Assembly: GCA_902784865.1 (NCBI GenBank)
Contig: CACZWL010000010.1
Coordinates: 26,921 to 90,920 of the forward strand
Direction of reading: 5' to 3'
Origin: an uncultured Bacteroidota bacterium
Lineage (GTDB): Bacteria > Bacteroidota > Bacteroidia > Bacteroidales > P3
DNA: 64,000 nucleotides
The translations under genes were made by a program, and so were the position numbers. The notes beneath the pieces were generated by a model that had not been told where the DNA came from, did not search any database, and was given only the letters and a program-made list of their open reading frames with translations. Of this stretch, positions 2,664 through 63,382 are shown in pieces (the stretch's first letter is position 1; every line of letters begins with the position of its first letter).

Positions 2664-4355
2664 ATGGAAGAAAACACCACCGAACGCCAGCTCAACTTTC
2701 TAGAGGAAATCATCGAGCGCGACCTCGCCGAGGGCCGCTGCTCCGCCGTGCAGACCCGCTTCCCCCCGGAGCCCAACGGCTACCTCCACATCGGCCACGC
2801 CAAGAGCATCTGCATCAACTTCGGACTGGCGCAGAAATACGGTGGCAAGACCAACCTCCGTTTCGACGACACCAACCCCGTCAAGGAGGACACCGAGTAC
2901 GTCGACTCCATCCAGGAGGACATCCACTGGCTGGGCTTCGACTGGGCCGAGAAGCACTACGCCTCCGACTATTTCGAGCAGCTCTACGACTGGGCTTGCC
3001 TGCTGATACAGAAAGGTTTGGCCTACGTCGACGACCAGACGCTCGACGAGATACGCGCCGGCCGCGGAACCGTGACCACGCCCGGCAAGAACAGCCCCTA
3101 CCGCGACCGCAGCGTCGAGGAGAACCTCGACCTCTTCCGCCGCATGCGCGCTGGTGAGTTCCCCGACGGCGCCAAGGTGCTGCGAGCCAAGATTGACATG
3201 GCGCACCCCAACATGATGTTCCGCGACCCCATCATGTACCGCATCCTGCATGCCCACCACCACCGCACGGGCGACAAGTGGTGCATCTACCCGATGTACG
3301 ACTATGCCCACGGCCAGAGCGACTCCATCGAGCATATCACCCACAGTATCTGCACTTTGGAGTTCGACATCCACCGTCCGCTCTACGACTGGTTCATCGA
3401 GCAGCTGGGCATCTGGCCGAGCCACCAGTATGAATTTGCCCGCCTGAACATCAACTACACGGTGATGTCCAAGCGCAAGCTGCTGCAGCTGGTGAAGGAG
3501 AACTATGTCAGCGGCTGGGACGACCCCCGCATGCCGACCATCTGCGGTTTCCGCCGCCGCGGCTATACGCCCGAAAGCATCAAGGCTTTCTGCGAGCGCA
3601 TCGGCGTGGCCAAGCGCGACAACATCATCGACTACGGTCTGTTGGAGTTCTCGCTACGCGAGCACCTCAACAAGGTGGCCCAGCGCCGCATGGCCGTGCT
3701 CGATCCCGTGAAGGTTATTATTGATAATTATCCCGAGGGACAGACCGAGATGCTGACGGCCGTCAACAACCCCGAATGCGCCGAGGACAGTACGCGCCAG
3801 GTGCCCTTCGGCCGCGAGCTGTGGATTGAGCGCGAGGACTTTATGGAGGTGGCACCCAAGAAGTACTTCCGTATGGCCATCGGCCAGGAGGTGCGTCTGC
3901 GCTATGCCTATTTCGTTACGGCACAGAGCGTTGAGAAGGACTCCGAGGGCAACATCACCTGCATCCACTGCACCTACGACCCCGCCACGCGTGGCGGCGA
4001 CGCCCCCGACGGGCGCAAGGTGAAGGGCACCATCCACTGGGTGGCCGCCCACAGCGCCGTTGACGCCGAGGTGCGCCTGTTCGACCGTCTGTTCGCCGTC
4101 GAGGCACCGGACGATGTCGAAGAGGGCCACACCTTCCTCGAGAACCTCAACCCCAATTCGTTGAAGGTAGTCACCGCCAAGTGCGAACCCGCCCTGGCCG
4201 AGTGGAAAGCGGAAAGTGGAAAGTGGAAAGATGGAATAGTCCGCTACCAGTTCGAGCGCATGGGCTACTTCTGCACCGACCGCGACAGCACCGACGGACA
4301 CCCCGTCTTCAACCGCACCTGCACCCTCAAAGACAGCTGGGCGAAGATAAAATAA
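2664..4355 (+). CDS. glnS: glutaminyl-tRNA synthetase
   Basis: 563 residues, close to the usual length for bacterial GlnRS. It charges tRNA-Gln with glutamine. Class I signatures are plain: [16 protein letters not shown] with HIGH at residues 42-45, RFDDTNP, and VMSKRKL (KMSKS-type loop) near residues 267-273. The C-terminal half carries the two anticodon-binding beta-barrels. Near the C-terminus [14 protein letters not shown] is longer than expected for the family; it is encoded by an iterated (GTGGAAA)n element at 4202-4237 inserted in frame. GlnRS in Bacteroidales was acquired from other lineages long ago, so its presence is normal here. The gene has its own promoter; a heptad repeat follows the stop. 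Confidence 0.97.
4202..4237 (+). repeat. in-frame heptad repeat (GTGGAAA)n inside glnS
   Basis: Units GTGGAAA, GCGGAAA, GTGGAAA, GTGGAAA, then a decayed copy. It encodes the loop [11 protein letters not shown] in the second beta-barrel region. No reverse-complement arm is visible at this copy. Confidence 0.8.
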
Positions 4356-4356
4356 T

Positions 4357-4388
4357 GGTTATTGGTTAGAGGTTATTGGTTATAGAAT
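4357..4388 (+). repeat. intergenic heptad repeat (GGTTATT/GGTTAGA)
   Basis: Immediately after the glnS stop: GGTTATT GGTTAGA GGTTATT GGTTATA, four 7-nt units. Same architecture class as the in-gene copies but with a different word. Confidence 0.75.
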
Positions 4389-4393
4389 AGGAT

Positions 4394-4735
4394 ATGCAGA
4401 TTATTGACCGTCCGACAGACAGAAAGATACTGAACGCCATGATGCCGAACTATTTTGGCGACATGGTGAAGGCAGTTGTGGATATTGCGCAAAAGAAGAT
4501 AGGTGTGGATGCTGAGTTGCATGCTGACATCGAGCAGGCGCTGCTGGCACAAGGGTCGTCGCAGTACGACCTTTGGGGCATCAACCTGTATCCCGAGATG
4601 GACGGCGAGGATTTCGTGGAGTTTGACTCAATGATCAACATCCGCCCGGGTCAAGGCAACCGCAGTCGCGACGTGCAGGATGCCGACACACGGCAGAGGA
4701 TAATAGACACAGTAAACTATCTGCTGCCATGCTGA
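4394..4735 (+). CDS. DUF5674 family protein
   Basis: 113 residues. The whole chain fits the DUF5674 pattern as I know it: an N-terminal helix RKILNAMMPNYFGDMVKAVVD, then VDAELHADIEQ, LWGINLYPE, VEFDSMINIRP and GNRSRDV. These proteins are small, single-domain and of unknown function; the clustered acidic and histidine residues (DAELHAD) suggest a possible metal site, but that is inference. The stop overlaps the next ATG by seven bases, so the two genes are probably translated from one message. Confidence 0.75.
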   Translation: MQIIDRPTDRKILNAMMPNYFGDMVKAVVDIAQKKIGVDAELHADIEQALLAQGSSQYDLWGINLYPEMDGEDFVEFDSMINIRPGQGNRSRDVQDADTRQRIIDTVNYLLPC

Positions 4736-5064: not shown

Positions 5065-5074
5065 ATTTTTTGTG

Positions 5075-5082: not shown

Positions 5083-5161
5083 CAGTCGGAAATAAAAACT
5101 AAAACAATGACATAAAATAGAACATAATAACATAGACATATATTGAGCTGAACGCTCTTGT

Positions 5162-8995: not shown

Positions 8996-11614
8996 ATGAA
9001 TATTTCTTTTGATTGGCTTAAAGAATATGTGGATATTGAGGATATGACTCCTCAACAGTTGGACGACCTGCTGACTTTCTCCGGCTTGGAGGTGGACAGT
9101 ATGGAGAAGGTGGAGACCATCAAGGGCGGTCTGGAGCATGTGGTGATAGCGCAGGTGCTGACCTGTGAGCCGCACCCCGACAGCGACCACCTGCACCTGA
9201 CCACCGTCGACGTGGGCGGCGAGCGTCCGCTGAATATCGTCTGCGGCGCCCCCAACGTGGCCGCCGGCCAGAAGGTGGTGTGCGCCCAGATAGGCACCAA
9301 GATCTACACTTCGGACACCGAATACTATGAGATTAAGAAAGGCAAGCTGCGCGGCGCCGTCAGCGAGGGTATGCTCTGCGCTGCCGACGAGCTGCAGCTG
9401 GGTACCGACCACGCCGGCATCATGGTGTTGCCGGACGACGCCCCGGTGGGAATGCCCGCCAAGGAGTACTTCCACGTGAAGGACGACTGTCTGCTGGAGG
9501 TGGCCATCACGGCCAACCGCATGGATGCCATTTCGCACATCGGCGTGGCCCGCGACGTGGTGGCTGTCCGCAATACCCGCGAGGGGAAGCATCTGAAGAT
9601 TAAGTGGCCGGAGGTGGCTGAATGCGTTAATGCGTCAACGTGTAAATGCGTTAGTGCTGACGCGTCAGCCACTAACACAATAACGCAATCACACAATAAC
9701 GCAATTAGAGTAACCGTCGAGGAGCCCGAGCTCTGCCCGCGCTATACCGGCATCACGCTGCGCAATGTGAAGGTAGGGGAGAGCCCCGAGTGGCTGCAGA
9801 ACCGCCTGCGTACCGTGGGTCTGCGTCCTATCAACAATATCGTCGACGTCACCAACTTCGTCATGATGGAGGTGGGCCAGCCGCTGCATGCCTTCGATGC
9901 CGACAAGATCGGCGGCGGCCACGTCATCGTGAAGCGCCTGCCGCAGGGCACCAAGTTCGTCACCCTCGACGGCGTGGAGCGCACGCTCGACCAGCGCGAC
10001 CTGATGATATGCTGTGAATGTGGGAATGCGTTATCGCGTGAATGCGTGAGTGCTGACGCGCCAGCCACTAACACAATAACGCAATCAAGCAATAACACAA
10101 TTCAGGCGGAGCCTATGTGCATCGCCGGTGTCTTCGGCGGACAGAAGAGCGGCGTGAGCATGGAGACCACGAACGTCTTCCTCGAGAGCGCCTTCTTCAA
10201 CCCCGTGAGCATCCGCAAGACCAGCCAGCGCCACACGCTGAAGACCGACGCCAGCTACCGCTACGAGCGCACCTGCGACCCCAACATCACCGAGTGGGCC
10301 CTGCGTCGCGCCGTGAAGCTCATCCGGGAACTTGCCGGCGGCGACATCTGCGGCCAGATGGTGGACCTCTACCCCAACAAGATTGAGTGTCCTACGGTGG
10401 AGGTGAACTTCCGCCGCATGTTCGACCTCGTGGGGCAGGACATTCCGCTGGAGGCCGTGCGCACAGCCCTCACGTCGCTCGACATCGAGATTGTGCGCGA
10501 GGACGCCGAGGGCATGACCCTCAAGGTGCCCACCTGCAAGGCCGACGTCACGCGCGAGTGCGACATCGTGGAGGAAATCATGCGCATCTACGGCTACAAC
10601 AACATCCACATCGGCACTACGGTCAACAGCTGCCTCTCCTACGGCAAGAAGCCCGACCCACGCAAGCTGAGGAACGCTGTGAGCGACTACCTCACCGACA
10701 ACGGCTTCAGCGAGATTATGAACAACTCGCTCACCAAGAGCGAATACTACGACGAGAACCCCGACTTCCCGGCCGGCCGCTGCATCCCCATCATCAACCC
10801 CCTGTCGAAGGAACTCAACGTCATGCGCCAGACGCTGCTCTACAGCGGCTTGGAATGCATCGCGCGTAACATTAATTATAAGATCCACGACCAGAAGCTC
10901 TACGAGTTCGGCCGCAGCTACGTGAAGACCGACGAGGCCGCCAACCAGGAACTGCCCGTCACCAAGCGCTTCAACGAGACCGAGCATGTCAGCATCTTCC
11001 TCACGGGCAACATGCTGACCGAGAGCTGGAAGCAGAAGAGCCCCGAGAGCGACTTCTTCTACCTGAAGTCCTACGTGATGACCATCCTGCAGCGCATGCG
11101 CGTCAACATGGGCAGGGTAGAGGTGGTGCCCTCGCAGGCCAAGTACTTCGCCGAAGGCCTCGACCTCGTCCTGCGCGACAACAAGAAGGTCATCGCCACC
11201 CTCGGCACCCTCGGCCGCGAGACCTTGAAGAAGATGGATATCAAGCAGCCCGTCTACTATGCCGACCTCAACTGGACGCTGCTTCTGAAGGGTTACCCGA
11301 CCAAGGAGGTGCAGTATCAGGAAGTGGCCAAGTTCCCCGAGGTTCGCCGCGACCTGGCCCTCATTCTGAAGAAGGACGTCACCTTCGCCGCCATCGAGCA
11401 GGCTGCCATGCAGTGCGAGAAGAAGCTCCTCAAGCGCGTCAGCCTCTTCGACGTCTACGAGGGCAAGGGCATCGCCGACGGCTTCAAGTCCTACGCCGTC
11501 AGCTTCATCCTGCAGGACAAGGACAAGACCCTCAATGACAAACAGATCGAGGCCACCATGGCCAAGATCCAGAAGACCCTCGAGACCCAGCTGGGCGCGA
11601 AGGTGCGCGGATAA
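8996..11614 (+). CDS. pheT: phenylalanyl-tRNA synthetase beta subunit, with two in-frame inserts
   Basis: 872 residues, longer than typical PheT of about 800-820. Domains in order: tRNA-binding OB-fold (EPHPDSDHLHLTTVDVG, about 45-155), B3/B4 (RPINNIVDVTNFVMMEVGQPLHAFD), B5, catalytic-like core (LRNAVSDYLTDNGFSEIMNN), and the C-terminal ferredoxin-fold anticodon-binding domain ending near residue 870. It pairs with PheS, not in this window, to charge tRNA-Phe. Two insertions of about 29-30 residues, roughly 209-237 and 340-369, share CVSADA and ATNTITQS and are encoded by two copies of the same hairpin element. Both interrupt loops, one before B3/B4 and one in the LMIC...AEPMCIAGVFGG region, without breaking the frame. 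The rest is well conserved, so the enzyme is probably active. Confidence 0.96.
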   Translation: MNISFDWLKEYVDIEDMTPQQLDDLLTFSGLEVDSMEKVETIKGGLEHVVIAQVLTCEPHPDSDHLHLTTVDVGGERPLNIVCGAPNVAAGQKVVCAQIGTKIYTSDTEYYEIKKGKLRGAVSEGMLCAADELQLGTDHAGIMVLPDDAPVGMPAKEYFHVKDDCLLEVAITANRMDAISHIGVARDVVAVRNTREGKHLKIKWPEVAECVNASTCKCVSADASATNTITQSHNNAIRVTVEEPELCPRYTGITLRNVKVGESPEWLQNRLRTVGLRPINNIVDVTNFVMMEVGQPLHAFDADKIGGGHVIVKRLPQGTKFVTLDGVERTLDQRDLMICCECGNALSRECVSADAPATNTITQSSNNTIQAEPMCIAGVFGGQKSGVSMETTNVFLESAFFNPVSIRKTSQRHTLKTDASYRYERTCDPNITEWALRRAVKLIRELAGGDICGQMVDLYPNKIECPTVEVNFRRMFDLVGQDIPLEAVRTALTSLDIEIVREDAEGMTLKVPTCKADVTRECDIVEEIMRIYGYNNIHIGTTVNSCLSYGKKPDPRKLRNAVSDYLTDNGFSEIMNNSLTKSEYYDENPDFPAGRCIPIINPLSKELNVMRQTLLYSGLECIARNINYKIHDQKLYEFGRSYVKTDEAANQELPVTKRFNETEHVSIFLTGNMLTESWKQKSPESDFFYLKSYVMTILQRMRVNMGRVEVVPSQAKYFAEGLDLVLRDNKKVIATLGTLGRETLKKMDIKQPVYYADLNWTLLLKGYPTKEVQYQEVAKFPEVRRDLALILKKDVTFAAIEQAAMQCEKKLLKRVSLFDVYEGKGIADGFKSYAVSFILQDKDKTLNDKQIEATMAKIQKTLETQLGAKVRG
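9621..9706 (+). repeat. hairpin octad element, copy 1 in pheT
   Basis: Left arm 9621-9656 built from AATGCGTT/AATGCGTC/AACGTGTA/AATGCGTT; palindromic centre CTGACGCGTCAG (9657-9668); right arm 9670-9706 built from ACAATAAC/GCAATCAC/ACAATAAC. The right arm is an imperfect reverse complement of the left. The total insert keeps frame. Confidence 0.85.
10014..10103 (+). repeat. hairpin octad element, copy 2 in pheT
   Basis: Left arm 10014-10052, centre CTGACGCGCCAG (10053-10064), right arm 10065-10103. The centre and right arm are nearly identical to copy 1 and in the same orientation and reading frame, while the left arm is more diverged. Confidence 0.85.
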
Positions 11615-12475: not shown

Positions 12476-12763
12476 CAAAATCTGTACGGTGCCGTAATGA
12501 CCCATTTCGGCCATTTCTAAAATTGCATGGCGTTGTAATGACTCATTTTTGCCATTTCCAAAATCGTTTGGGCCTTGCGACACTCATTTTAGCCGTTTTC
12601 AAAATTGTTTGGGCTTTGCAACACTCATTTTAGCCGTTTTCAAAATCATTTGGCCCTTGCGACACTCTTTTTTGCCGTTTTCAAAATCGTTTGGCCCTTG
12701 CGACACTCTTTTTTGCCGTTTTCAAAATCGTTTGGGCGTAGCGGCAACCATTTTTCTTATTGG
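12476..12763. repeat. 41-bp minisatellite, about seven units
   Basis: The core CAAAATCGTTTGG recurs at 12559, 12600, 12641, 12682 and 12723 with exact 41-bp spacing, with older copies at about 12517 and 12476. The unit continues CCTTGCGACACTC...TTTGCCGTTTT. Units are contiguous with no unique spacers, so it is not a CRISPR array. It fills the gap between the zeta-like operon and the leftward lipoprotein gene and contains no credible ORF. Confidence 0.9.
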
Positions 12764-14405: not shown

Positions 14406-14437
14406 CAAAGATACGACATTTCTGCGAGGTGGCAAAA
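14406..14437 (-). promoter_or_regulatory. promoter of the 6S-like RNA
   Basis: -33 TTTTGCC, 19-bp spacer, -7 TATCTTTG, then CACTC. The best-formed Bacteroidetes promoter in the window. Confidence 0.7.
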
Positions 14438-14500
14438 TTTATTTTTTCTCCGAGGGTGACATTGTGCAATATTTTTGTTTTTTTTGCGTTGATAGGGAGC

Positions 14501-15007
14501 ATGAAAGGCTTGGAGCAATACGATGTGAAGGTGCTGCTGGCGTTGGTGAAGAGCGTCAGCGGGCGCACCGACTTCTTCAAGCTCCTGGTCGAGGTGCGGC
14601 CCGAGCTGGCGGCTTTCAGCAACGCCATCCGTGGCGACGACGACGCCATGGTGTGGCTGTTCAAGCATGACTTCGCCTGGCTGGCCATCCTCAGCAACGC
14701 CTGCGACGGCGACGAGCGCGCCATCGACTGGGTGCGCAACGGCCTGACGCCCGTCAACCTGCGCTTCGCCCTGGCCTGCCGCCGCGACGAGGAGTCGCTC
14801 CGGTGGCTCTACCAGCGCAAGCTCGGCGCGCTGCTGCTCCTTGTCCGCGAGGTGGAGAAATTCCTCAAGTACCAGGAGAAGGAGTACACTTGGCCCTACG
14901 TGATGCACTTCGGCGGCCACTATCGCGCCATGAAAGACCTCGAAGAATGGAAACAACAAGAAGAAGACCATGATAAAGAAAGACAGCAACAAGAAAAGGA
15001 ACGATAG
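14501..15007 (+). CDS. hypothetical helical protein upstream of rluB
   Basis: 168 residues from ATG 14501; the longer open frame runs back through the 6S promoter and was not used. It is mainly helical, with repeated ~30-residue units that vaguely resemble ankyrin-like pairs (DDDAMVWLFKHDFAWLAILS, DERAIDWVRNG, DEESLRWLYQRKLGALLLL), and a charged Gln/Glu/Lys tail. No catalytic motif seen. It overlaps the start of the pseudouridine synthase gene by 38 bases, implying one operon. Conserved partner of RluB in related species is possible but not verified. Confidence 0.6.
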   Translation: MKGLEQYDVKVLLALVKSVSGRTDFFKLLVEVRPELAAFSNAIRGDDDAMVWLFKHDFAWLAILSNACDGDERAIDWVRNGLTPVNLRFALACRRDEESLRWLYQRKLGALLLLVREVEKFLKYQEKEYTWPYVMHFGGHYRAMKDLEEWKQQEEDHDKERQQQEKER

Positions 15008-15887
15008 CCCCAGAGAGGCCAAGGAAACCAGAACCCCCAGGGGGACAAGAGATTCTAGAAATTCTAGGGATTCTAGAGATTCTAGATTTTCTAGAGATTC
15101 TAGGGATTCTAGAGATTCTAGAAAGCGCAAGCCTGCCGCCCCGCAGAAGCCTGCCTCCAAGCGCCCCGAAGGCGCCATGCGCCTCAACAAGTACATCGCC
15201 CATGCCGGCATCTGCTCGCGCCGCGAGGCCGACGAGCTTATCGCCGCCGGCAGCGTCAAGGTCAACGGCAAGGTGGTCACAGAAATGGGCTACCAGGTGA
15301 TGCCCGGCGACGAGGTGCAGTATGGCGGCGAGCGTCTCCGCAGCGAGCGTCTCCGCTATTTCCTCCTCAACAAGCCCAAGGGCTTCATCACCACCACCGA
15401 CGACCCGCAGGAGCGCCGCACCGTGATGATGCTCATGGACGGCTGCTGTGCCGAACGCATCTATCCCGTCGGCCGCCTCGACCGCGCCACCACCGGCCTG
15501 CTGCTCTTCACCAACGACGGCGAGCTGGCCAAAAAGCTCACGCACCCTTCCACCCAGGTCTACAAGATCTACCAGGTGGAGCTCAACAAGCCCGTCACCA
15601 AGGAGGACATGAAACGCCTCCTCGATGGCATCGAGCTTGAGGATGGCCCCATGCATGTCGATGATATCCAGTATGCCGCCGTCGGCAAAACCATCGACAA
15701 GCGCATCGTCGGCGTCGAATTGCACAGCGGTCGCAACCGCATCGTGCGACGCCTCTTCGAGGCCCTCGGCTACGAGGTGCACAAGCTGGACCGCACCGTC
15801 TTCGCCGGCCTCACCAAGAAAGACCTCCCTCGTGGACGCTGGCGCGAACTGACTGAAAAGGAAGTCGGCTTTCTCAAAATGATTTGA
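14970..15887 (+). CDS. rluB: RluB/RsuA-family pseudouridine synthase
   Basis: 305 residues. After a basic N-terminal tail come an S4 RNA-binding domain (MRLNKYIAHAGICSRREADELI, about 70-130) and the catalytic domain with YPVGRLDRATTGLLLFTNDG, where the aspartate of GRLD is the catalytic residue, then ELHSGRNRIVRRLFEALGY. It isomerises a uridine in 23S rRNA (RluB-type) or 16S rRNA (RsuA-type); the S4 domain and length fit either. The tail contains DSR repeated eight or so times, encoded by a 9-nt TTCTAGAGA element. The gene overlaps the one upstream and its 3' end is copied as a 44-bp tandem repeat beyond the stop. Confidence 0.9.
   Translation: MIKKDSNKKRNDSPREAKETRTPRGTRDSRNSRDSRDSRFSRDSRDSRDSRKRKPAAPQKPASKRPEGAMRLNKYIAHAGICSRREADELIAAGSVKVNGKVVTEMGYQVMPGDEVQYGGERLRSERLRYFLLNKPKGFITTTDDPQERRTVMMLMDGCCAERIYPVGRLDRATTGLLLFTNDGELAKKLTHPSTQVYKIYQVELNKPVTKEDMKRLLDGIELEDGPMHVDDIQYAAVGKTIDKRIVGVELHSGRNRIVRRLFEALGYEVHKLDRTVFAGLTKKDLPRGRWRELTEKEVGFLKMI
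15050..15123 (+). repeat. in-frame nonad repeat (GATTCTAGA)n in rluB
   Basis: Eight 9-nt units GATTCTAGA / AATTCTAGG / TTTTCTAGA with little drift. Each unit carries CTAG, normally a rare tetranucleotide in bacteria. It encodes (DSR)n between the N-terminus and the S4 domain. Confidence 0.9.
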
Positions 15888-15974
15888 GAAGGCCACCTGC
15901 CATCCAGGTCGGCTTTCTCAAAATGATTTGAGAAGGCCAACTGCTTGCCAGGTGGGATTCCTGAAAATGATTTA
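15864..15974 (+). repeat. 44-bp tandem duplication of the rluB 3' end
   Basis: GTCGGCTTTCTCAAAATGAT... begins at 15864 (inside rluB, including its stop), again at 15908, and in decayed form at 15952, spaced exactly 44 bp. Each unit contains the hairpin TTCTCAAA ATGA TTTGAGAA and so may act as repeated weak terminators. Confidence 0.85.
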
Positions 15975-16432: not shown

Positions 16433-16492
16433 AGTTGTTTTTCGTTGTTCAAGTTGTTTTCAAAAAAAGACAACCTAAACAACAGTCAACCC
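16433..16492. repeat. intergenic hairpin octad element (GTTGTTTT)
   Basis: Left arm GTTGTTTT TCGTTGTT CAAGTTGT (from 16433), right arm GACAACCT AAACAACA GTCAACCC (16468-16492); the right arm is the imperfect reverse complement. A long T-run follows at 16501-16510. It lies between two convergent genes and may terminate both. Confidence 0.7.
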
Positions 16493-24158: not shown

Positions 24159-24253
24159 TGAGAGGCAATGATGCGATTTGACGTGAATTGGCGCGGTTTG
24201 GATGGGCACCCCTCCAAATCGCGCCAAATCGCGCCAAATGACAAGTTCCCCGA
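24159..24253. other. intergenic hairpin AAATCGCGCC
   Basis: GGCGCGGTTTGGA and TCCAAATCGCGCC flank TGGGCACCCC and form an imperfect stem; AAATCGCGCC is then repeated with a 10-nt period. The same AAATCGCGCC word precedes two other copies of the 11-nt family at 51993 and 58018. Confidence 0.55.
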
Positions 24254-24352
24254 TTTTCCCATCGATGGGAAATGATGGGAAAGAGTCGAACCATTCACCT
24301 ACCAGATACCTACCAGACACTTACCAGACACCTGCCCGGCGTCTGGCAGGTA
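24254..24352 (+). repeat. ACCTACCAGAY family, copy upstream of kamA
   Basis: TTTTCCCATCGATGGGAAA, GATGGGAAAGAGTCGAACC, then ATTC and 11-nt units ACCTACCAGAT, ACCTACCAGAC, ACTTACCAGAC, closing with ACCTGCC..GGCAGGT hairpin. One of the most complete copies. Confidence 0.85.
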
Positions 24353-25727: not shown

Positions 25728-26798
25728 TTGAAAGGTGATAGGATAAAGGTGAAAGGTCATGGTCAGCACATATTGTTGTGTGTGCTGGCTCTAACCTTTC
25801 ACCTTTTACCTTTCACCTCTTTAAAGGCGCAGGTGGCGGGTCTGAACACGCTGACACTGCTCGACTTGGGCAGCGCGGCGCGCACGTCGGGCATAGGGTT
25901 CGACTACCTGTCGGTCTACGATGCCGACGCGACGCTTGCGCTAGACAATCCGTCGCTGTTGCACCGCGATATGTCGCGGACGGCGAGCCTGAGTGTGGTA
26001 ACCCTCTTCGAGGGCGGCGCGATGGGGTCGCTGTCGTATGTGCACGACTTCGGCCGCATAGGCCCCATGCAGTTTGCCTTCCGCTTCTACAACTACGGCC
26101 CGTTCAGGGCTTTCGACGAGGAGGAGACAGCGCAGGGCGAGTTCAACGCGGCCGACTATGCCCTCAGCATCGGCTGGGCGATGGCAATTGATTCCCATTT
26201 TGCCATCGGAGTGAACCTGAAACCCGTGCTCTCACAGTACGAGCAGTACAAGGCCGTGGCCCTCGCGTTCGACCTGGCCGTCTCTTATTTCAGCGCCGAC
26301 CGCCGGTTGGCGGCGACGGTGATGGGACGCAATGTGGGGGCTCAGGTGTCGACCTTCGACGGCGCGGTGGAGGGTATTCCCTTCGAGCTTTCGGCGCAGG
26401 TGTCGTACAAGCTTGAGCGCGCCCCGTTCCGCTTCTTCCTGGCGGCCACCGAGTTGCAGCGCTGGGACCTGCGCTACAACGACCCGCGTTACCCCACTAT
26501 CGAGACGGACCCGTTCACGGGCGCGGTGACGAAGGAGAGCGCCGTGGGCGGTTTCATAGACAACCTGCTGCGCCATGCGCTTGTGGGTGTGGAACTGGGC
26601 ATCAGCAAGGCGCTGTTTGCCCGTGTGGGCTACAGCTACCGACAGACGATGGAGATGCGCGGCGTGGATGCCTTCAACCTTAGCGGCCTCTCGTTCGGCA
26701 TTGGCATACGTACGCGCAAGTTCGAGTTCAGCTATGCCCACCGCAACTACCACCTCTCGCAGGCACCCAACTTCTTCACGTTGAGCTACCGTTTTTAG
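25728..26798 (+). CDS. porQ: type IX secretion system protein PorQ
   Basis: About 356 residues if translation starts at TTG 25728, 348 if at GTG 25752; there is no in-frame ATG. After the signal peptide comes GLNTLTLLDLGSAARTSGIG, then a 14-strand type beta-barrel ending in FTLSYRF with terminal Phe, as expected for the PorV/PorQ family. PorQ is an outer-membrane component of the T9SS attachment complex that handles proteins such as the sorting-domain cargos at 58 and 63.7 kb. The signal peptide (KGDRIKVKG..., LALTFHLLPFTSL) is encoded wholly by the two arms of a heptad hairpin element. Confidence 0.8.
   Translation: MKGDRIKVKGHGQHILLCVLALTFHLLPFTSLKAQVAGLNTLTLLDLGSAARTSGIGFDYLSVYDADATLALDNPSLLHRDMSRTASLSVVTLFEGGAMGSLSYVHDFGRIGPMQFAFRFYNYGPFRAFDEEETAQGEFNAADYALSIGWAMAIDSHFAIGVNLKPVLSQYEQYKAVALAFDLAVSYFSADRRLAATVMGRNVGAQVSTFDGAVEGIPFELSAQVSYKLERAPFRFFLAATELQRWDLRYNDPRYPTIETDPFTGAVTKESAVGGFIDNLLRHALVGVELGISKALFARVGYSYRQTMEMRGVDAFNLSGLSFGIGIRTRKFEFSYAHRNYHLSQAPNFFTLSYRF
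25731..25822 (+). repeat. heptad hairpin element forming the PorQ signal peptide
   Basis: Left arm 25731-25757 (GGTGATA GGATAAA GGTGAAA), inner stem CAGCACA with TGTGCTG around a short loop, right arm 25794-25822 (CTTTCAC CTTTTAC CTTTCAC). The arms are imperfect reverse complements. The left arm encodes the basic n-region, the right arm the hydrophobic core. Confidence 0.85.
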
Positions 26799-26813: not shown

Positions 26814-27821
26814 ATGAAGCTACAATACATCGTTTCCAACCAGACCAACCCCTACTGGAATATAGCGGTCGAGAACTACCTTGTCGAGCATGCCGACGGC
26901 ATAGTGCTTTACCTCTGGCGAAACCGCCGGACGGTGGTGATAGGGCAGAACCAGAACCCCTACAGCGAGTGCAACCTCGAAGCCCTTGCGGCTGACGGGG
27001 GCTACCTGATGCGCCGCAAGACGGGTGGCGGCGCCGTCTACCACGACGACGGCAACCTCAACTTCTCCTTCGTTGTTCCCAAGGCCATCTACGACCAGCA
27101 GCGCCAGTTCCGCGTGATACAGCGCGCCGTCGAGAGTTTCGGCCTCCACACCCAACTCAGCGGTCGCAACGATATCCTCGTGGAATGCCCGAATGAGTCA
27201 TCCACTGACGCAATCACGCAATCGCGCATTCACGCATTCCGAAAGTTCTCCGGCAACGCCTTCTCCAAAGGCCGTGTCAACGACCTCCATCACGGCACTA
27301 TCCTCATCAAGGGCAATATGTCCGACCTGGCCCGCTACCTCAAACCCAAGCCTGCCAAACTGCAGAAGCATGGTGTCAGTTCCGTGCAGAGCCGTGTGGT
27401 CAACCTCTCCGAACTGAATCCTGCTATCACCGCCGAGAGCCTAAGCCCTCGCCTGAAAGCGGCTTTCGAATCCGAGTACTCCGAATACTCAGATTATTCC
27501 GAATACTCCGATTTCTCTGAAATAATCAAGCAACCTGCCGTCCAGAAACTCTACAATGAGTTCGCCTCCGACGAGTGGCGCTTCGGCCGCTGGCGCACCT
27601 TCACCGCGCAGCGCTCCGCGCAGTTCGACTGGGGTGGGGTGGAGATGCAAATCGCCGTCGACCAGGAACATGGCGTCATTACCGATGTCCAGATCTCTTC
27701 CGACGCCCTCGACCTCGCCGCCCTCGACGAGGCCCGCAGCCTGCTGACGGGTGCCGACATGCAGTGCCGCCCGCAGTGTGGCAACGCGGTGGTCAACGAT
27801 ATCCTTTCGCTGATTTATTAG
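26814..27821 (+). CDS. lplA: lipoate-protein ligase A family protein
   Basis: 335 residues. It begins QYIVSNQTNPYWNIAVENYL, followed by LYLWRNRRTVVIGQNQN, RRKTGGGAVYHDDGNLNFSF (the conserved RRxxGGGxVxHD lipoate site) and FSGNAFS; the usual lysine-binding KGN occurs as ILIKGNMSDL. A C-terminal LplA-type accessory domain covers the last 80 residues. It attaches lipoate to E2 and GcvH proteins. Two in-frame word elements are inserted: NESSTDAITQSRIHAF (residues about 124-143) and a six-fold SEY/SDY repeat (about 219-236). Both fall between core motifs, in surface loops or the interdomain linker. Confidence 0.9.
   Translation: MKLQYIVSNQTNPYWNIAVENYLVEHADGIVLYLWRNRRTVVIGQNQNPYSECNLEALAADGGYLMRRKTGGGAVYHDDGNLNFSFVVPKAIYDQQRQFRVIQRAVESFGLHTQLSGRNDILVECPNESSTDAITQSRIHAFRKFSGNAFSKGRVNDLHHGTILIKGNMSDLARYLKPKPAKLQKHGVSSVQSRVVNLSELNPAITAESLSPRLKAAFESEYSEYSDYSEYSDFSEIIKQPAVQKLYNEFASDEWRFGRWRTFTAQRSAQFDWGGVEMQIAVDQEHGVITDVQISSDALDLAALDEARSLLTGADMQCRPQCGNAVVNDILSLIY
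27182..27240 (+). repeat. hairpin octad element in lplA
   Basis: Left arm GGAATGCCCGAATGAG, loop, right arm built from CGCAATCA/CGCAATCG/CGCATTCA/CGCATTCC. CCACTGACGCAATCACGC is closely related to the right arm of the two pheT copies, so this is the same family in another gene. Confidence 0.8.
27469..27522 (+). repeat. in-frame nonad repeat (TCCGAATAC)n in lplA
   Basis: Six 9-nt units TCCGAGTAC, TCCGAATAC, TCAGATTAT, TCCGAATAC, TCCGATTTC, TCTGAAATA, encoding SEY SEY SDY SEY SDF SEI before the C-terminal domain. Confidence 0.9.
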
Positions 27822-27835
27822 GAAAAAAGTTCCCA

Positions 27836-27930
27836 CCATTTCCACCCGATGGGAAATGATGGGAAAGAGTCGAAGTATTCACCTACCAGATACCTACCAG
27901 ACACCTACCAGATGGCAGGTGCCGGGGGGC
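27836..27930 (+). repeat. ACCTACCAGAY family, copy between lplA and glyQS
   Basis: CCCGATGGGAAATGATGGG, AAAGAGTCGAAGTATTC, then ACCTACCAGAT, ACCTACCAGAC, ACCTACCAGAT and GGCAGGTGCC. It sits in a convergent gap and still lies in the + orientation. Confidence 0.85.
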
Positions 27931-27943
27931 ATGTGGCGCGGGG

Positions 27944-33160: not shown

Positions 33161-33252
33161 TTTTCCCATCGGTGGGAAATGGTGCGAAAGAGTCGAACCA
33201 TTCACCTACCAGATACCTACCATATACCTACCGGATGCCTGCCGTGAGGCAC
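33161..33252 (+). repeat. ACCTACCAGAY family, copy upstream of serC
   Basis: TTTTCCCATCGGTGGGAAA, GCGAAAGAGTCGAACCATTC, units ACCTACCAGAT, ACCTACCATAT, ACCTACCGGAT, then GCCTGCC..GAGGCAC. The rest of the 33054-33380 gap holds only AT-rich sequence and the serC promoter. Confidence 0.85.
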
Positions 33253-34481: not shown

Positions 34482-34494
34482 ATTGATCTGACGG

Positions 34495-34627
34495 CGAATT
34501 ATGCAAATTATGCGAATTTGTCTACACTGAAATTAAAGGGCTAATTACTCGAATTGGCGGACGTCAACAATTCGAGTAATTAGCCAATCATTGACTGCGC
34601 AACTTCGCATAATTAGTTTAATTAACC
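34495..34627. repeat. nested hairpin nonad element between serC and serA
   Basis: Outer words CGAATTATG, CAAATTATG, CGAATTTGT pair loosely with CGCATAATT, AGTTTAATT on the right. The inner core is a perfect 18-bp inverted repeat: GGCTAATTACTCGAATTG (34539-34556), loop of 11, CAATTCGAGTAATTAGCC (34568-34585). Confidence 0.85.
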
Positions 34628-36574: not shown

Positions 36575-36590
36575 GGGTTATGAGTTAATA
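36556..36590 (+). repeat. heptad repeat (GTTAAGA/GTTATGA)5 across a stop codon
   Basis: GTTAAGA GTTATGA GTTAAGG GTTATGA GTTAATA. The first copies are the last codons and stop of the gene before; the rest is intergenic. Confidence 0.85.
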
Positions 36591-36613: not shown

Positions 36614-37183
36614 ATGAGTTTTTGGGAAGCGTTTATTCTGGCTTTGGCTTTGTGTGTCGACTCGCTGGTGGTGTCGGCCACCGAGGCCTTCCGCTCCCGC
36701 ATGGGGTGGCGGCAGGGGTTGCTGATGGCGCTCGTCTTCGGCCTCTGCCAGGGGCTGTTCCCGCTGTTGGGTGCCCTCATCGGCGACGCCTCGCGCGCCT
36801 TCATCGAGGCCGTCGACCACTGGGTGGCCTTCGGCCTGCTGGCCCTCATCGGCGGCAAGATGATTTTCGACGGAGTGAAAAACACAGAAGAGCCGAAGAA
36901 TTTCAATTTTCAATTTTCAATTTTCAAATACTTCCTCCTCGGCGTAGCCACCAGCATCGACGCCTTTGCCGTAGGCATCGGCCTGGGTCTGCAGGAGCGC
37001 CTGTTGGCTGTCCTGTATATCGTCTCGCTGATTGGGTTGGTCACGCTGCTGGTCTCGCTCCTCGGCGTCTACCTCGGCAAGCGCAACATACCCATCCCCG
37101 AGCGCGCCGCCGCCATCACCGCCGGCCTCGTCCTCATCGCCCTGGGGGTGAAGATATTGCTCGACCATCTGGGAATCTTCTAG
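36614..37183 (+). CDS. mntP: MntP-type manganese efflux pump
   Basis: 189 residues, six membrane helices. Conserved aspartates in LALCVDSLVVSATEAF and GVATSIDAFAVGIGLGLQ, and GLLALIGGKMIFDGV, identify MntP (formerly YebN). It exports Mn2+. The central cytoplasmic loop NTEEPKNFNFQFSIFKYF is encoded by a (TTTCAAT)n heptad element, replacing the usual acidic/basic loop with an aromatic one directly beside helix 4. A candidate Mn riboswitch (yybP-ykoY) was looked for upstream and not seen. Confidence 0.92.
   Translation: MSFWEAFILALALCVDSLVVSATEAFRSRMGWRQGLLMALVFGLCQGLFPLLGALIGDASRAFIEAVDHWVAFGLLALIGGKMIFDGVKNTEEPKNFNFQFSIFKYFLLGVATSIDAFAVGIGLGLQERLLAVLYIVSLIGLVTLLVSLLGVYLGKRNIPIPERAAAITAGLVLIALGVKILLDHLGIF
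36901..36928 (+). repeat. in-frame heptad repeat (TTTCAAT)4 in mntP
   Basis: TTTCAAT TTTCAAT TTTCAAT TTTCAAA; encodes NFQFSIF in the central loop. Confidence 0.85.
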
Positions 37184-38372: not shown

Positions 38373-38870
38373 TTGACCGCCAAGGAATATAGCCACCACA
38401 CGCCCCGCTGGGCCGACGACGCGCTGCGCTTCGCCCTTCGCTGCTGCCCCTCGAGGCCGGACTGCGAGGATGCCGTCCAGGAGGCCCTGGCCGCGCTCTG
38501 GCAGTGCCATGCCTCGGTGAGCCTCGACAAGGGCAAGTCCTACCTGCTCAGCGCCGCCTACCGTTCGCTGATGGCCACGCTCCGGCACGCCAAGGTGGAG
38601 CGCAAGCATGCCGACGGCGTCGGCGCCAGCGTCGCCACAGTCCAGCAGCCGGACCTCCGTTTCGACCTCCGCGAGGCCATCGAGCACAGCCTGCAGGCGC
38701 TCCCCGAGGTGCAGCGTGCCATACTGCAACTGCGTGACGTCGAGGGCTATAGCTACCGCGAGATAGGGGAGACCCTCGCGCTCTCCGACAGCCAGGTGCA
38801 GGTCTACCTCTTCCGCGCCCGCGTCAGTATGCGCAAACAGTTGAAGGAGCTTGGATACGATGAAAGTTGA
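38373..38870 (+). CDS. ECF-type RNA polymerase sigma factor
   Basis: 165 residues from a TTG; no in-frame ATG lies nearby and MTAKEYSHHTPRW matches the usual family start. Region 2: ALRFALRCCPSRPDCEDAVQEALAALW, KGKSYLLSAAYRSLMATLRH; region 4: LPEVQRAILQLRDVEGYSYREIGETLALSDSQVQVYLFRAR. Bacteroidetes-type ECF factor that directs polymerase to its own operon and envelope genes. The next gene is anti-sigma-like, then a DUF2807 surface protein, so this is a self-contained sigma/anti-sigma/output unit. No ordinary TANNTTTG promoter was seen upstream; autoregulation is likely. Confidence 0.9.
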   Translation: MTAKEYSHHTPRWADDALRFALRCCPSRPDCEDAVQEALAALWQCHASVSLDKGKSYLLSAAYRSLMATLRHAKVERKHADGVGASVATVQQPDLRFDLREAIEHSLQALPEVQRAILQLRDVEGYSYREIGETLALSDSQVQVYLFRARVSMRKQLKELGYDES

Positions 38871-38890
38871 AAACCGATAACAATAACAGT

Positions 38891-39661
38891 ATGAATCAGA
38901 TAAGTGCCGACAATTACGAGCTATGGCTCCTGCGCTATGCCGAGGGCGACCTCGCGCCGGAGGAGCGGCGTGCCGTGGAGGAGTGGCTTGCGAGCCACCC
39001 CGAGGCCGCCGAGGAACTGGCTCTCTATCAGGAGGCTCCGCGCCTGGAGCGCGACGAGCGTGTGCGGTATGCGGCTCAGCCGTCGCAGCCGCTCTGGCCT
39101 GTGGTGGCGCGCTGGAGCGCCGCTGCCGCCGTGATAGCGGCCCTCATGCTGCCCGCGCTCCGCATGGGAGGCCTGGCCCGCCTGCCGCAGCCGACGGAGG
39201 AACCGGCGCTCATGGCCGCGGCCATGGTGGCGGAGGAGGGGGGGGCTGGGTATTCTAGAAATTCTAGAATTTCTAAAATTTCTAGAATTTCTAGTTATCC
39301 TAGTTATTCCGGGTTATCTGGTTTTTCTGCTGCTGACTCGGTCTTTTCTAAGGGGGAGGGAGGCGCGCCCGAGGCCCCCGTGGCGGCACCTGCCGAAGTC
39401 ATCCCCTCCACCTCCCTCATCGCCTTCGACGACAGCGGCGTGGAAGACACCCTCGCCTCGTTCTCGCTCATCGCCTTCGAGCCTGCCGACTGGGGCGACC
39501 GCCTGCTGGCCGCCAACGACGGCGCCCGCGAAAGCCTGGCCCAGAGCGCCGGCGGACGCCTCGTCAGCCGCCTGCTGCCCGACAGCGACCAGTTGGCCGA
39601 GCACGTGGTAGATCCCCTCCGCGAAAGGCTTTCCATCATGCGTAACAAACTGAAACAATAA
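38891..39661 (+). CDS. anti-sigma-factor-like membrane protein
   Basis: 256 residues from ATG 38891; a TTG at 38867 overlapping the sigma gene stop would add eight. Residues 1-60 (DNYELWLLRYAEGDLAPEERRAVEEWLASHPEAAEEL) match the cytoplasmic N-terminal helix bundle of Bacteroidetes anti-sigma proteins, without the His/Cys zinc motif. One membrane helix follows (WSAAAAVIAALMLPAL). The outer part is low complexity, containing YSRNSRISKISRISSYPSYSG encoded by TTCTAGAAA nonads, then Ser/Ala-rich sequence. It probably binds the sigma factor encoded just upstream. Confidence 0.7.
   Translation: MNQISADNYELWLLRYAEGDLAPEERRAVEEWLASHPEAAEELALYQEAPRLERDERVRYAAQPSQPLWPVVARWSAAAAVIAALMLPALRMGGLARLPQPTEEPALMAAAMVAEEGGAGYSRNSRISKISRISSYPSYSGLSGFSAADSVFSKGEGGAPEAPVAAPAEVIPSTSLIAFDDSGVEDTLASFSLIAFEPADWGDRLLAANDGARESLAQSAGGRLVSRLLPDSDQLAEHVVDPLRERLSIMRNKLKQ
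39252..39321 (+). repeat. in-frame nonad repeat (ATTTCTAGA)n in the anti-sigma gene
   Basis: TTCTAGAAA, TTCTAGAAT, TTCTAAAAT, TTCTAGAAT, TTCTAGTTA, TCCTAGTTA, TTCCGGGTTA. Same CTAG word as the rluB element 24 kb away. Confidence 0.85.
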
Positions 39662-45667: not shown

Positions 45668-45698
45668 ATTTTATTTTTCAGTCACCAACCATAGTCGT

Positions 45699-45734
45699 AC
45701 CATATACCTACCATTCACCTACCAGATGGCTTAA
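45699..45734 (+). repeat. ACCTACCAGAY family, short copy
   Basis: ATACCTACCATTCACCTACCAGATGG without the GAGTCGAAC core. The remainder of the 45508-45909 gap is AT-rich with no ORF. Confidence 0.65.
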
Positions 45735-51992: not shown

Positions 51993-52090
51993 CAAATCGC
52001 GCCAAATCGCAACGGAGTCGAACTATTCACCTACCAGATACCTACCAGACACCTACCAGACACCTGCCGGATGCCAGCAACCGGTAGCCG
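51993..52090 (+). repeat. ACCTACCAGAY family, copy upstream of corA
   Basis: CAAATCGCGCCAAATCGC, GGAGTCGAACTATTC, units ACCTACCAGAT, ACCTACCAGAC, ACCTACCAGAC, then ACCTGCCGGATGCC. Preceded by the AAATCGCGCC word instead of the GATGGGAAA word. The remaining 51801-52213 gap holds only promoters. Confidence 0.85.
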
Positions 52091-54777: not shown

Positions 54778-54826
54778 GTGTAAAGTTTAAAAGTTTAAAG
54801 TTGTTGTATAACTTTCAACTTCGGGA
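54778..54826. repeat. intergenic word repeat AAGTTTA
   Basis: TAAAGTT TAAAAGTT TAAAGTTG then TTGTATAACTTTCAACTT, which is the partial reverse complement; a small member of the hairpin class, between exbB and the four-helix gene. Confidence 0.6.
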
Positions 54827-58017: not shown

Positions 58018-58092
58018 CAAATTGCGCCAAATCGCTCCAGAGTCGAACAATATACCTACCAGATACCTACCAGATGCCTGTCGTCGGGCGGC
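58018..58092 (+). repeat. ACCTACCAGAY family, copy upstream of the BspA/T9SS gene
   Basis: CAAATTGCGCCAAATCGC, CCAGAGTCGAACAATAT, units ACCTACCAGAT, ACCTACCAGAT, then GCCTGTCG. The rest of 57906-58223 is unremarkable apart from the promoter and a run of AATTCAAATT-like words at 58099-58130. Confidence 0.85.
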
Positions 58093-61802: not shown

Positions 61803-61814
61803 AAAAAAGCCTCA

Positions 61815-61857
61815 CACCCCAGCCCCCTCTCCTTTCAAGAGAGGGGGGGGCGGGGGT
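61815..61857. repeat. C-rich/G-rich hairpin between the two surface genes
   Basis: CCCAGCCCCCTCTC, loop CTTTCAA, GAGAGGGGGGGGCGGGG. A similar CTCCCC..GGGGAG hairpin lies at about 37208-37246 after mntP. Hairpins of this composition are common in Bacteroidetes intergenic DNA. Confidence 0.7.
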
Positions 61858-61878
61858 AGTTAAAATAAAGACAGTAAC

Positions 61879-63312
61879 ATGAAAAAGACAATACTGGCGG
61901 CAGCCATCATTTCGATATTCAGCATTCAGCATTCGGTCTGCCAGGGGCAGGAGCACAGCAACTACCTGGGGCTAGACCTCGGCGGCGGCATCGGCACCGC
62001 CCTCTACAGCCCCGCCCACGGCGACCGCTCCATGGGCCTGGGCTTCGGCGCAGGGCTGCACTACGCCCACTTCTTCGGTCGCCACTTCGGCCTCGGCTTC
62101 GGCGTCAACTACAGCCGCCTTGCGGCCTCTACCACCTACGACTTCACCGAGACCACCACCGGCCTCTCCCATGCCTCTAATCCCGGCGTCACCTACGACC
62201 TCAGCACCACCTTCGACGGCTGGCGCGAACGTCAGGCCATGGGCCTCCTCGGCATCCCCGTCGAGTTTTTCTGGCGCACGCCGCTGGGCCGCCACGCCCT
62301 CATCGTCGGTCTCGGCGCCCAGTTCGAGCTGCCGCTCCACGCCTCCTACACCGCCGACGAAGGTGCCTACGTCACCACCGGCTACTTCCCCTCCATCGGC
62401 CACAGCGTCGGCGACCTGCCGCAGCACGGCTTCAGCGCCTACGACGCTGACTTCCAAGCCGACATCGAGAACCTCAAGCCGTCGGTCAGCCTCCTGGCCG
62501 ACCTCGGCCTGCGCTTCGCCCTAGGCGGTCGCTGGGGCTTCTACGCTGGCCTCTATGCCTCTTACGGCATCACCGGCACCCTCGACGAGGTGGCCACCGA
62601 CCCGCTGCTTAAACTCTCCGACAACAGCGCCGACGAGATAGTCTACAACGGCACCTTCGCCTCTGCCGAGGTCGATGGTGCGCACCTGCTGCGCGTAGGC
62701 CTCAAGTTGGGGCTCGACTTAGGCTGGAACTGCCATAGCCGCCAGCCCGAGCCCGTCGCCGAGGAGCCTGTCCTTGTGCCCGTCCAGCAGGAGGAGCCGC
62801 AGGTCGACGAGGCAGCCCGCGAGGAGGCCCGTAGGGCCGCCGAGAAAGCCGAGGCAGAACGCAAAGCCCTGCGCGAAGCCCAGGAGCGTGCCGAGGCCGA
62901 GCGCCGTGCCGCCGAGGCCCGCAAGCAGGAGGAGGCTCGTCAGGCCGCCGCAGCACGCGCCGACCTCAAGGGTAGGGTAGAGGGCATGGTCATCGCCTTC
63001 GACTTCGGCGGCAGCGAGCCCCGCATACGCACCGAGGACGACCTCGTCCTGCGCGCCCTCTGCGCCGCCATGCAGGCCGACCCGTCGCTCCGTGTCACCG
63101 TCACCGGCCACACCGACAACGTCGGCCCTGCCGATGCCAACATGCGCCTCGGCATGGAACGCGCCCAGGCCGTCCGCCAGCGCATGACGGAGCTCGGCGC
63201 CCCGGCTGCCAATATCGCCAGCGCCAGCCGCGGCGAGGAGCAGCCCGTCGACACCAACGATACCCCCGAAGGCCGCGCCCGCAACCGCCGCGTCGTCGTC
63301 GCGTTCGAGTGA
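61879..63312 (+). CDS. OmpA-family outer-membrane protein
   Basis: 477 residues. Signal peptide MKKTILAAAIISIFSIQHSVCQGQ, in which IFSIQHS is encoded by (ATTCAGC)n. Residues about 30-300 form an eight-strand-like barrel (YLGLDLGGGIGTALYS, MGLGFGAGLHYAHFFG, RWGFYAGLYASYGITG). A Glu/Ala/Arg coiled coil follows (about 305-365), then the OmpA peptidoglycan-binding domain with VTGHTDNVGPADANMRLGMERAQAVRQRM and GRARNRRVVVAFE. It ties the outer membrane to the wall. Downstream is a hairpin element and the tRNA. Confidence 0.9.
   Translation: MKKTILAAAIISIFSIQHSVCQGQEHSNYLGLDLGGGIGTALYSPAHGDRSMGLGFGAGLHYAHFFGRHFGLGFGVNYSRLAASTTYDFTETTTGLSHASNPGVTYDLSTTFDGWRERQAMGLLGIPVEFFWRTPLGRHALIVGLGAQFELPLHASYTADEGAYVTTGYFPSIGHSVGDLPQHGFSAYDADFQADIENLKPSVSLLADLGLRFALGGRWGFYAGLYASYGITGTLDEVATDPLLKLSDNSADEIVYNGTFASAEVDGAHLLRVGLKLGLDLGWNCHSRQPEPVAEEPVLVPVQQEEPQVDEAAREEARRAAEKAEAERKALREAQERAEAERRAAEARKQEEARQAAAARADLKGRVEGMVIAFDFGGSEPRIRTEDDLVLRALCAAMQADPSLRVTVTGHTDNVGPADANMRLGMERAQAVRQRMTELGAPAANIASASRGEEQPVDTNDTPEGRARNRRVVVAFE
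61917..61937 (+). repeat. heptad repeat (ATTCAGC) in the OmpA signal peptide
   Basis: ATTCAGC, ATTCAGC, ATTCGGT; encodes part of the hydrophobic core and cleavage region. Confidence 0.6.
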
Positions 63313-63321
63313 GTGGTTTCT

Positions 63322-63382
63322 TTTAGTGGGTAGTGGGTAGCACTTGTGGTCAGATGCTACCCACTACCCACTATCCACTAAA
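63322..63382. repeat. heptad hairpin element after the OmpA gene
   Basis: Left arm TTTAGTGGGTAGTGGGTAGCA (63322-63342), loop of 12, right arm TGCTACCCACTACCCACTATCCACTAAA (63355-63382), with 7-nt words GTGGGTA / CTACCCA. The right arm has one more unit than the left. It may end the OmpA transcript. Confidence 0.88.

Follow-up and report, generated by a model that had tools for sequence, protein, structure and literature searches.

Words of 7, 8 or 9 nt (heptads, octads and nonads), iterated in tandem and in part paired in inverted orientation, lie scattered through genes and intergenic gaps of a 64,000-nt stretch of DNA from an uncultured Bacteroidota bacterium (P3; contig CACZWL010000010.1, positions 26,921-90,920), referred to here as the window. 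On balance, these arrays appear to represent a non-autonomous superfamily of small repeat elements that are built of word arrays and resemble both REPINs (hairpin-forming doublets of repetitive extragenic palindromic, REP, sequences) and Rickettsia palindromic elements (RPEs). The window was compared with the remainder of its own genome and with metagenome-assembled Bacteroidales of mainly rumen and gut origin, the more distant of which include 'bacterium P3' and Candidatus Colimorpha. G-numbers denote genomes and L-numbers the loci compared, with G002 being an array-rich congener.

Word arrays exceed chance in the window and its genome

Tandem runs with periods of 7-9 nt were scored against an order-3 Markov null (10 replicates) for the window and against a single Markov replicate for the own genome (463.5 kb). 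The window held 25 runs with a score of at least 10 (0.9 expected) and 12 with a score of at least 13 (0.1 expected), and the own genome yielded 37 runs of period 7, 10 of period 8 and 16 of period 9, compared to 1, 0 and 0 in the null. An earlier note on this DNA, made from its letters alone, had described iterated words of 7-9 nt and named equality with shuffled sequence as a refuting outcome; these counts come out in its favour. The note named about 20 sites, and this list held up in part: among 17 coordinates placed from it and scored for tandem runs, 12 were clear (4202, 4357, 9621, 15048, 25731, 27182, 27471, 35861, 36556, 36901, 39253 and 63322; at most 0.2 expected per window) and three were marginal (10014, 34495 and 54778; 0.6-0.9 expected per window), the first of which belongs to a dispersed family, whereas the tandem scores at 16433 and 40314 were at chance level. 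For 4357 and 36556 the best score came at period 14, and the null for periods 7-9 was applied to them. A single tRNA was the only Rfam match above gathering score in the window, and no array was matched.

The units of one array carry one word, and the word changes from locus to locus. The further statement that architecture stays constant while words change did not survive, as an inverted partner (a reverse-complement array within 160 nt) accompanied only 10 of 35 heptad, 5 of 10 octad and 1 of 16 nonad arrays in the own genome. Based on gene assignments from a simple purpose-made gene caller, the density of heptad arrays per 100 kb in coding vs non-coding DNA was 7.1 vs 8.7 in the own genome, 17.2 vs 105.8 in G002 and 2.4 vs 32.4 in G013; the mostly non-coding placement of heptamer arrays thus holds in G002 and G013 and fails in the own genome.

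A single coding site carries different words in different relatives

Turnover of words was followed at two sites in pheT, the product of which matches a solved PheT (7n8y). In the window, site 1 (9620-9707, plus strand) holds an octad palindromic element of the dispersed family, consisting of four octads, the core GTGCTGACGCGTCAGCCAC and four further octads, within a gap of the alignment to 7n8y. Site 2 (10014-10101, plus strand) holds a second such element between two stretches aligned to 7n8y, in the same reading frame as at site 1. The octad palindrome at site 1 (words read by eye) is present in the window, L039, L040 and L060, and GTGGAAA heptads or eroded forms of them occupy the same site at nine loci. 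Other states comprise ordinary codons, a heptad palindrome of GGAATGA (L103) and three nonads that differ from one another. Alleles with GTGGAAA and with CCGGAACTT both total 93 nt, which is the length of the ordinary allele.

Similar exchanges were found elsewhere. In the window, a GTGGAAA heptad array lies in frame within the C-terminal anticodon-binding domain of GlnS (4201-4230, plus strand; tandem scan, Pfam); across species this site is occupied by GTGGAAA or one of two further heptads, by various hairpins, or by ordinary codons. In lplA, residues NDILV are followed by a short octad palindrome here (27179-27239, plus strand; tandem scan, inverted partner, relatives) and by a heptad palindrome in G002. 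One site in the L003 gene is empty at some loci and elsewhere contains a TTTCAAT array, a palindrome of octads or of GAATGAA, a C/G hairpin or a further dispersed element. Between L053 and L067, gains of 30 nt at a gene junction and of 33 and 51 nt in coding sequence were identified; target-site duplications, a trait of miniature inverted-repeat transposable elements, were not obvious by eye at these three gains, and a parent insertion sequence was sought among Y1 transposases and reverse transcriptases only. In L182 and L044, the octad element replaces ~51 nt of native codons. Some array gains are in frame and some replace native codons, and the comparison with relatives that the earlier note had proposed returned presence, absence or a different word at several coding sites (among them pheT, glnS, the L003 gene and L053/L067). 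In-frame copies, which the note had stated for essential genes, were confirmed in GlnS, an RluB-like protein, LplA, MntP and PheT, and in ValS outside the window.

The window and L041 encode PheT proteins that are 97% identical, and their words at site 1 differ. On a PheT tree built without both sites, at least 20 changes were counted at pheT site 1 and at least 12 at glnS; both figures are lower bounds in which gains, losses and recombination are not separated. The tree was built by a quick procedure, leaves 13 of its 33 inner branches open, relies on states assigned by eye, omits L093 and L114 and has no shuffled-label control. L114 is identical to the window at pheT site 2 (105 of 105 nt) and different at site 1, and its 3,017-nt contig may be an assembly chimera. 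A broader set of 58 insertion alleles of at least 5 aa (13 gene families, 34 loci), which include orthologous copies and are thus not independent, reached a tandem score of at least 10 in 16 cases compared to 9 of 290 random coding segments, and an inverted score of at least 15 in 12 cases compared to 7 of 290. The contrast was weaker at low cut-offs, with inverted scores of at least 8 in 40 of 58 alleles and 162 of 290 segments. Comparison of the own genome with G002 gave 21 orthologues among 297 genes with 8 indels, 3 of them heptads, which is too few to count.

Selection at the protein level for low-complexity linkers, from whose repeated codons the DNA repeats would follow, is a very unlikely source of the arrays. 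Nonads do keep codon phase, and those of lplA vary mainly at third positions (SEY), but 7- and 8-mers have no codon phase and many arrays are non-coding. Codon-level selection was discounted, since one DNA word can be translated in more than one frame depending on the gene: TCCGAATAC gives SEY or RNT/QNT, and CTAGAA gives S-R or L-E.

Two further coding inserts recur (both by eye). CTCCCGCCTCCGGCG-AAATCCATAAA is found in the rluB N-terminal tails of L042, L043, L056 and L090 and at the L003-gene site of L112, and GGGCAACGCGACCGA-N-GGAGCGA-GCCC in glnS of L043 and in rluB of L100, L106 and L045, i.e., in at least two genes.

Octad palindromes and a core shared by different words

The octad element produced 20 matches at 16 distinct places in the own genome, some of them partial, and its copies are ~73-99% identical across most of 80-90 nt. 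It was detected in 23 of 61 genomes, every one in the same genus. When copies from several species were combined, 16 of 27 distinct copies were in frame in unrelated genes, an RPE-like trait, all with one sense and one frame that reads (D/E)CVNALMRECVSADAPATNTITQSHNNAI. The in-frame copies span at least 12 host contexts by manual count, and hosts beyond the window include a GH97 glycosidase (own genome) and an ABC protein and a lysyltransferase-like protein (congeners). Together with the dispersed heptads, these in-frame palindromes support the earlier proposal of a mixture of STRR-like arrays (short tandemly repeated repetitive sequences) and in-gene palindromes with many words. Phage carriage of the octad element was considered and set aside, since one exact 29-nt pattern was missing from viral contigs.

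Palindromes occurred at 13.4 per 100 kb in the own genome, 29.0 in G002, 8.8 in G013 and 6.7 in G015, compared to 1.06 in the null. Among 93 palindromes with word arms, one proved to be a masked-N artefact and was excluded from loop analysis. A GCT-N0-2-CGC core was present in 21 of 49 loops and in 5.5% of random windows, the motif having been chosen on these same loops. The core was replicated at 77 pheT-neighbourhood loci, where it was carried by 10 of 29 word palindromes, whereas its share was 5 of 151 among the remaining palindromes and 6% among random windows; 6 of these 10 were octads and 4 were heptads with different words. Different words thus flank one shared core. Neighbouring heptad arrays were inverted in 54 cases, direct in 21 and unlike in 24, which amounts to a REPIN-like preference for inverted doublets, and the purine-rich arm came first in 43 of the 54 inverted pairs. 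Neighbouring octad arrays were inverted in 11, direct in 5 and unlike in 20 cases, with a polarity opposite to that of heptads (2 of 11).

Heptad arrays of array-rich species show a length mode

In G002, 82 of 207 heptad arrays measured 30-33 nt, with 31 at 26-29 nt and 32 at 34-37 nt. The same length class comprised 101 of 191 heptad arrays at the 77 pheT-neighbourhood loci, 74 of 154 once GTGGARA words and duplicate flanks were removed, and 211 of 512 heptad arrays when pooled. Taking one value per distinct word, 22 of 52 (G002) and 29 of 72 (pheT loci) fell at 30-33 nt. As detection begins at ~17 nt, the mode is not a threshold effect, and in array-rich species it is independent of the word. 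Within the palindromes of the GTGNTNA family in G002, 13 of 18 arms paired by eye consist of exactly four units, and the order of unit variants differs between copies.

This mode bears on local word expansion, in which slippage or template switching would enlarge a native seed, selection would keep the in-frame products and nothing would move. The L039 array in the L003 gene ends exactly on the native TTCAATT of its relatives, arrays are homogeneous inside, lengths in the own genome are broad and 16 of 212 G002 arrays are longer than 60 nt, all of which favours such expansion. However, the clustering at 30-33 nt in the pheT loci and G002, the finding that a word may occupy dozens of positions in one species and be absent from its sisters, the core common to different words and the likeness of octad copies over most of their length render it unlikely, and slippage alone is weighed down by the length mode, to which the own genome is the exception. 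The earlier suggestion of an insertion or word-expansion process filtered by selection is consequently upheld for insertion, through site turnover, and opposed by the length mode for plain expansion.

Word vocabularies differ between lineages

Exact matches to TTTCAAT x2.7 (TTTCAATTTTCAATTTTCA; overlaps counted) were present in 27 of 80 genomes, every one in the same genus, with 32 in the own genome, 59 in G002 and 97 in G052; none was found in 21 of 48 genomes of the genus or in any of 32 genomes of other families, and the reversed word gave at most 3 matches per genome. The arrays are thus plentiful in this genus of uncultured rumen Bacteroidales, with word vocabularies and copy numbers that are lineage-specific; beside G002 and G052, G005 and G055 also count as array-rich. 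As a separate observation, an exact TTTCAAT x3.7 array occurs in nine viral contig stretches (L247-L255). Near pheT, heptad arrays numbered 19.6 per 100 kb at 33 loci with PheT identity of at least 77%, 7.2 at 38 loci with 61-73% identity and 4.8 at 6 loci from other families, which shows that heptad arrays in general also occur outside the genus. No heptad, octad or nonad array was found in 160 kb of G015.

Three genomes together contain 81 distinct heptad words, which share a consensus beyond composition (log-likelihood 49.2 vs 27.6 +/- 3.9 in 20 shuffles, maximum 37.1). In the GTGTTTA family (GTGNTNA) of G002, positions 1, 2, 3, 5 and 7 are invariant over 99 units, with position 4 varying in 16% and position 6 in 42%; the seed words were picked after inspecting the data, and other seeds are less strict. 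Such regularity would be expected if the arrays were tandem 7- or 8-bp operators whose length and invariant positions are set by a DNA- or RNA-binding protein. A ribbon-helix-helix protein would be one example, although a search of the open PubMed Central literature gave no paper on such a binder. The fixed positions, the consensus shared by distinct words and the varying order of units between copies all speak for recognition sites. Conversely, the sheer number of heptad words, the copies inside housekeeping coding regions and the post hoc choice of GTGNTNA seeds, beside which other seeds are looser, speak against them, and as a general explanation we regard recognition sites as distinctly unlikely. 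A binding role is nevertheless a live rival for families such as GTGNTNA.

Search for a mobilising gene

No match to the reverse transcriptase model RVT_1 was obtained in the whole own genome, which counts there against a reverse transcriptase of the type covered by this model as the agent. Y1_Tnp matches were present in 22 of 31 genomes, including two genes of the own genome that lie outside the window. The earlier note had stated that the window is devoid of transposases and reverse transcriptases; this agrees with the lack of RVT_1 matches genome-wide and with the position of both Y1 genes, the window having been scanned for no other transposase families. RAYT-like (REP-associated tyrosine transposase) Y1 genes were noted at L226 (own genome, C5:112777 and 127839), L203 and L227-L241. 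At 19 Y1 loci from 12 genomes inspected by eye, the genes mostly stood amid other REP-like hairpins (e.g., GCCCCTACGGGGC, CCGTGGGCGATGCCCACGG), and no iterated-word hairpin was seen beside any of them.

Mobilisation of the arrays as REP elements by the Y1 transposases of the genus is the least probable of the explanations weighed. In its favour are the frequency of Y1_Tnp and the REP beside Y1 gene G002c (GTAGGGGCGTACCCCCGTGTACGCCC, L203 ~14432-14968), which by eye looks like the insert that lies in frame at site 2 of the L103 pheT; this likeness suggests that RAYT-type REPs also enter these coding sites. Against it, most Y1 flanks hold hairpins without iterated words, and G013, which is 97% complete and has no Y1 match, contains 17 octad matches. 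The partnership with a RAYT-type transposase or reverse transcriptase suggested for checking in the earlier note is therefore not supported, and the REP/RAYT systems of the genus look largely separate from the word arrays.

Proposed origin of the arrays and points against it

In the small-repeat superfamily that we favour, the basic unit would be an array of ~4.5 heptads or ~4 octads, and the ~86-88-nt palindromic element would consist of a pair of such units in inverted orientation with a GC-rich core between them (~26 nt in the best G002 family). Units may spread in trans as single-stranded fold-back DNA, with host repair copying them or joining them at breaks. In-frame copies in tolerant protein loops would then be the only ones that purifying selection retains, and the alleles could afterwards pass between species via homologous recombination. 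The function of arrays in genes is probably neutral or selfish. Alternatively, a cellular word-writing machinery could produce arrays of set length (~31 nt in array-rich species) in which a 7-nt word is iterated ~4.5x, pair them around a common core, and insert or rewrite them at new loci; we entertain this as a tentative possibility. The corollary, equally tentative, is that each array would receive one word from a loose consensus, differing between loci, rather than a copy of a fixed sequence.

Several observations weigh against a mobile superfamily. Of the nine GTGGAAA alleles of pheT, seven have the same variant of the second unit and the other two are eroded, a pattern that suggests inheritance or recombination more than repeated independent gain; with the site-2 identity of L114, part of the word turnover between species is probably allele exchange. 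Comparisons were made between species, with L039 pairs at 82-83% DNA identity. Of the octad copies, 11 of 27 lie outside the open frame (D/E)CVNALMRECVSADAPATNTITQSHNNAI, and covariation in 22 octad copies did not rise above shuffles (13 vs 12.3 pairs with two-sided change). RNAalifold favoured a small local stem, and covariation was discarded as evidence that a hairpin has been maintained. Only 14 of 52 heptad arrays in the own genome (with 13 at 26-29 nt) and 14 of 62 in G013 (with 13 at 17-21 nt) measure 30-33 nt, a weak mode in both, and neither octads (44 of 230) nor nonads (22 of 245) have a sharp one. The majority of arrays in the own genome have no inverted partner, and no mobilising gene was found among the candidates looked at, RVT_1 and Y1 only. 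The weak mode in these two genomes and the REP recognised in the pheT insert both weaken the case for the superfamily.

Further arrays and repeats of the window

Besides the pheT elements, the glnS array and the lplA palindrome, the tandem scan placed the following arrays on the plus strand. A GGTTATT heptad array stands immediately 3' of the glnS stop codon (4357-4385), and the nonad array TCTAGANNN lies in the N-terminal tail of an RluB-like gene (15048-15122; also Pfam and relatives). A GGTGAAA heptad palindrome at the start of open reading frame (ORF) 25728-26798 (25731-25823) clusters with L192:5188 and L205:9383 of G002. Within lplA, the nonad array TCCGAATAC is read as SEY (27471-27520; also Pfam). 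ORF 35699-36574 contains a CTCTCCA heptad array (35861-35890), and its stop is spanned by a GTTAAGA/GTTATGA heptad array (36555-36588). In mntP, a TTTCAAT heptad array is in frame (36901-36927; NFNFQFSIFK; also Pfam), and the nonad array TTCTAGAAT lies in ORF 38867-39661 (39252-39307), which has a weak Pfam match to DUF4880 below cut-off. The AATTATGCA nonad run (34494-34518) and the AAAGTTTA run (54782-54799) are marginal, with 0.6 and 0.9 expected per window, respectively. Finally, an intergenic GTGGGTA heptad palindrome without assigned strand (63322-63380; tandem scan, inverted partner) encloses the loop AGCACTTGTGGTCAGATGCT, and by eye similar loops are present in insertion alleles of L050 and L090. 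Host identities were given by Pfam for GlnS, the RluB-like pseudouridine synthase, LplA and MntP; in ValS, outside the window, a heptad palindrome lies within the anticodon-binding domain.

Other repeats were noted alongside. Period-11 arrays of ACCTACCAGAT form a separate, mainly intergenic family (3 of 26 in genes), and a dispersed, mostly intergenic element combines an TTTTCCCATCGATGGGAAAT hairpin, GAGTCGAA and the 11-nt array ACCTACCAGAT. This TTTTCCCATCGATGGGAAAT/GAGTCGAA element occurs in the window at 24214-24333, 27848-27943, 33171-33240, 45683-45724, 52028-52065 and 58052-58079, with up to 13 overlapping matches per copy in the 463.5 kb. A dispersed repeat of ~280 nt with TGTTAATAGATGTTAAAC hairpins is found at L118:1254-1533, L123:7108-7394, L123:15513-15776 and other places, and every one of the 10 copies in the TGTTAATAGATGTTAAAC hairpin cluster comes from the own sample. 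Longer tandem repeats, of 41 and 44 nt, lie beside pheT and rluB (12541-12755 and 15864-15973).

Relation to known repeats and significance

In cyanobacteria, STRR sequences are tandem heptamer arrays, and the small dispersed repeats of this group are very small mobile repeats. For the palindromic traits, RPEs of ~150 bp are described as lying in frame in unrelated genes and forming several families (PMC10969869), features that recur here, a likeness drawn from description. Unlike in that account, the arms here are iterated words that change by locus, single-arm arrays are commoner than palindromes, and the phylum is another. REPINs are described as a short unit doubled in inverted orientation across a spacer, accompanied by singlets, extragenic and linked to RAYTs (PMC3116915). 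Inverted doublets and singlets are likewise present here, whereas the units are word arrays that occur within genes as well, and the majority of local Y1 genes are accompanied by different REPs.

Among heptamer arrays, TAACTGA repeats are reported from Beggiatoaceae, Cyanobacteria and five Bacteroidetes, with 25 proteins whose coding regions hold or overlap them (PMC4679880), and GGGAATC/GGGGAYT arrays from Xanthomonas and Nostoc, with mention of inverted repeats (PMC4692102). As far as the available text of these reports goes, such arrays (STRR, TAACTGA, GGGAATC) resemble those described here in their 7-nt words, genome-wide dispersal and strain-specific loci. The published arrays are mainly intergenic, as are those of G002 and G013, whereas 24 of 35 in the own genome lie in genes. 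Sets of four units have been tied to G-quadruplexes in the published arrays, and here G-poor words of G002 share the length mode. A core shared between words and the swapping of words at a coding site, both present here, were not found in the available text of PMC4679880 and PMC4692102. Overall, the arrays combine STRR-like heptamers, RPE-like in-frame palindromes and REPIN-like inverted doublets, and they depart from REPINs in defining features, namely an extragenic position and units matching the repeats beside a resident RAYT gene. No report of this combination was found in the open PubMed Central literature searched.

Arrays of heptamers are already known from unrelated bacteria, with no mechanism attached to them, and the rules described here can be checked in any genome: a word-independent 30-33-nt mode in array-rich species, inverted pairs with a core, replacement of words and in-frame survival in tRNA synthetases. 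These rules argue against plain slippage and against G-quadruplexes as the cause of four units. If the proposed superfamily is real, it would provide a continuing supply of new peptide segments in essential proteins.

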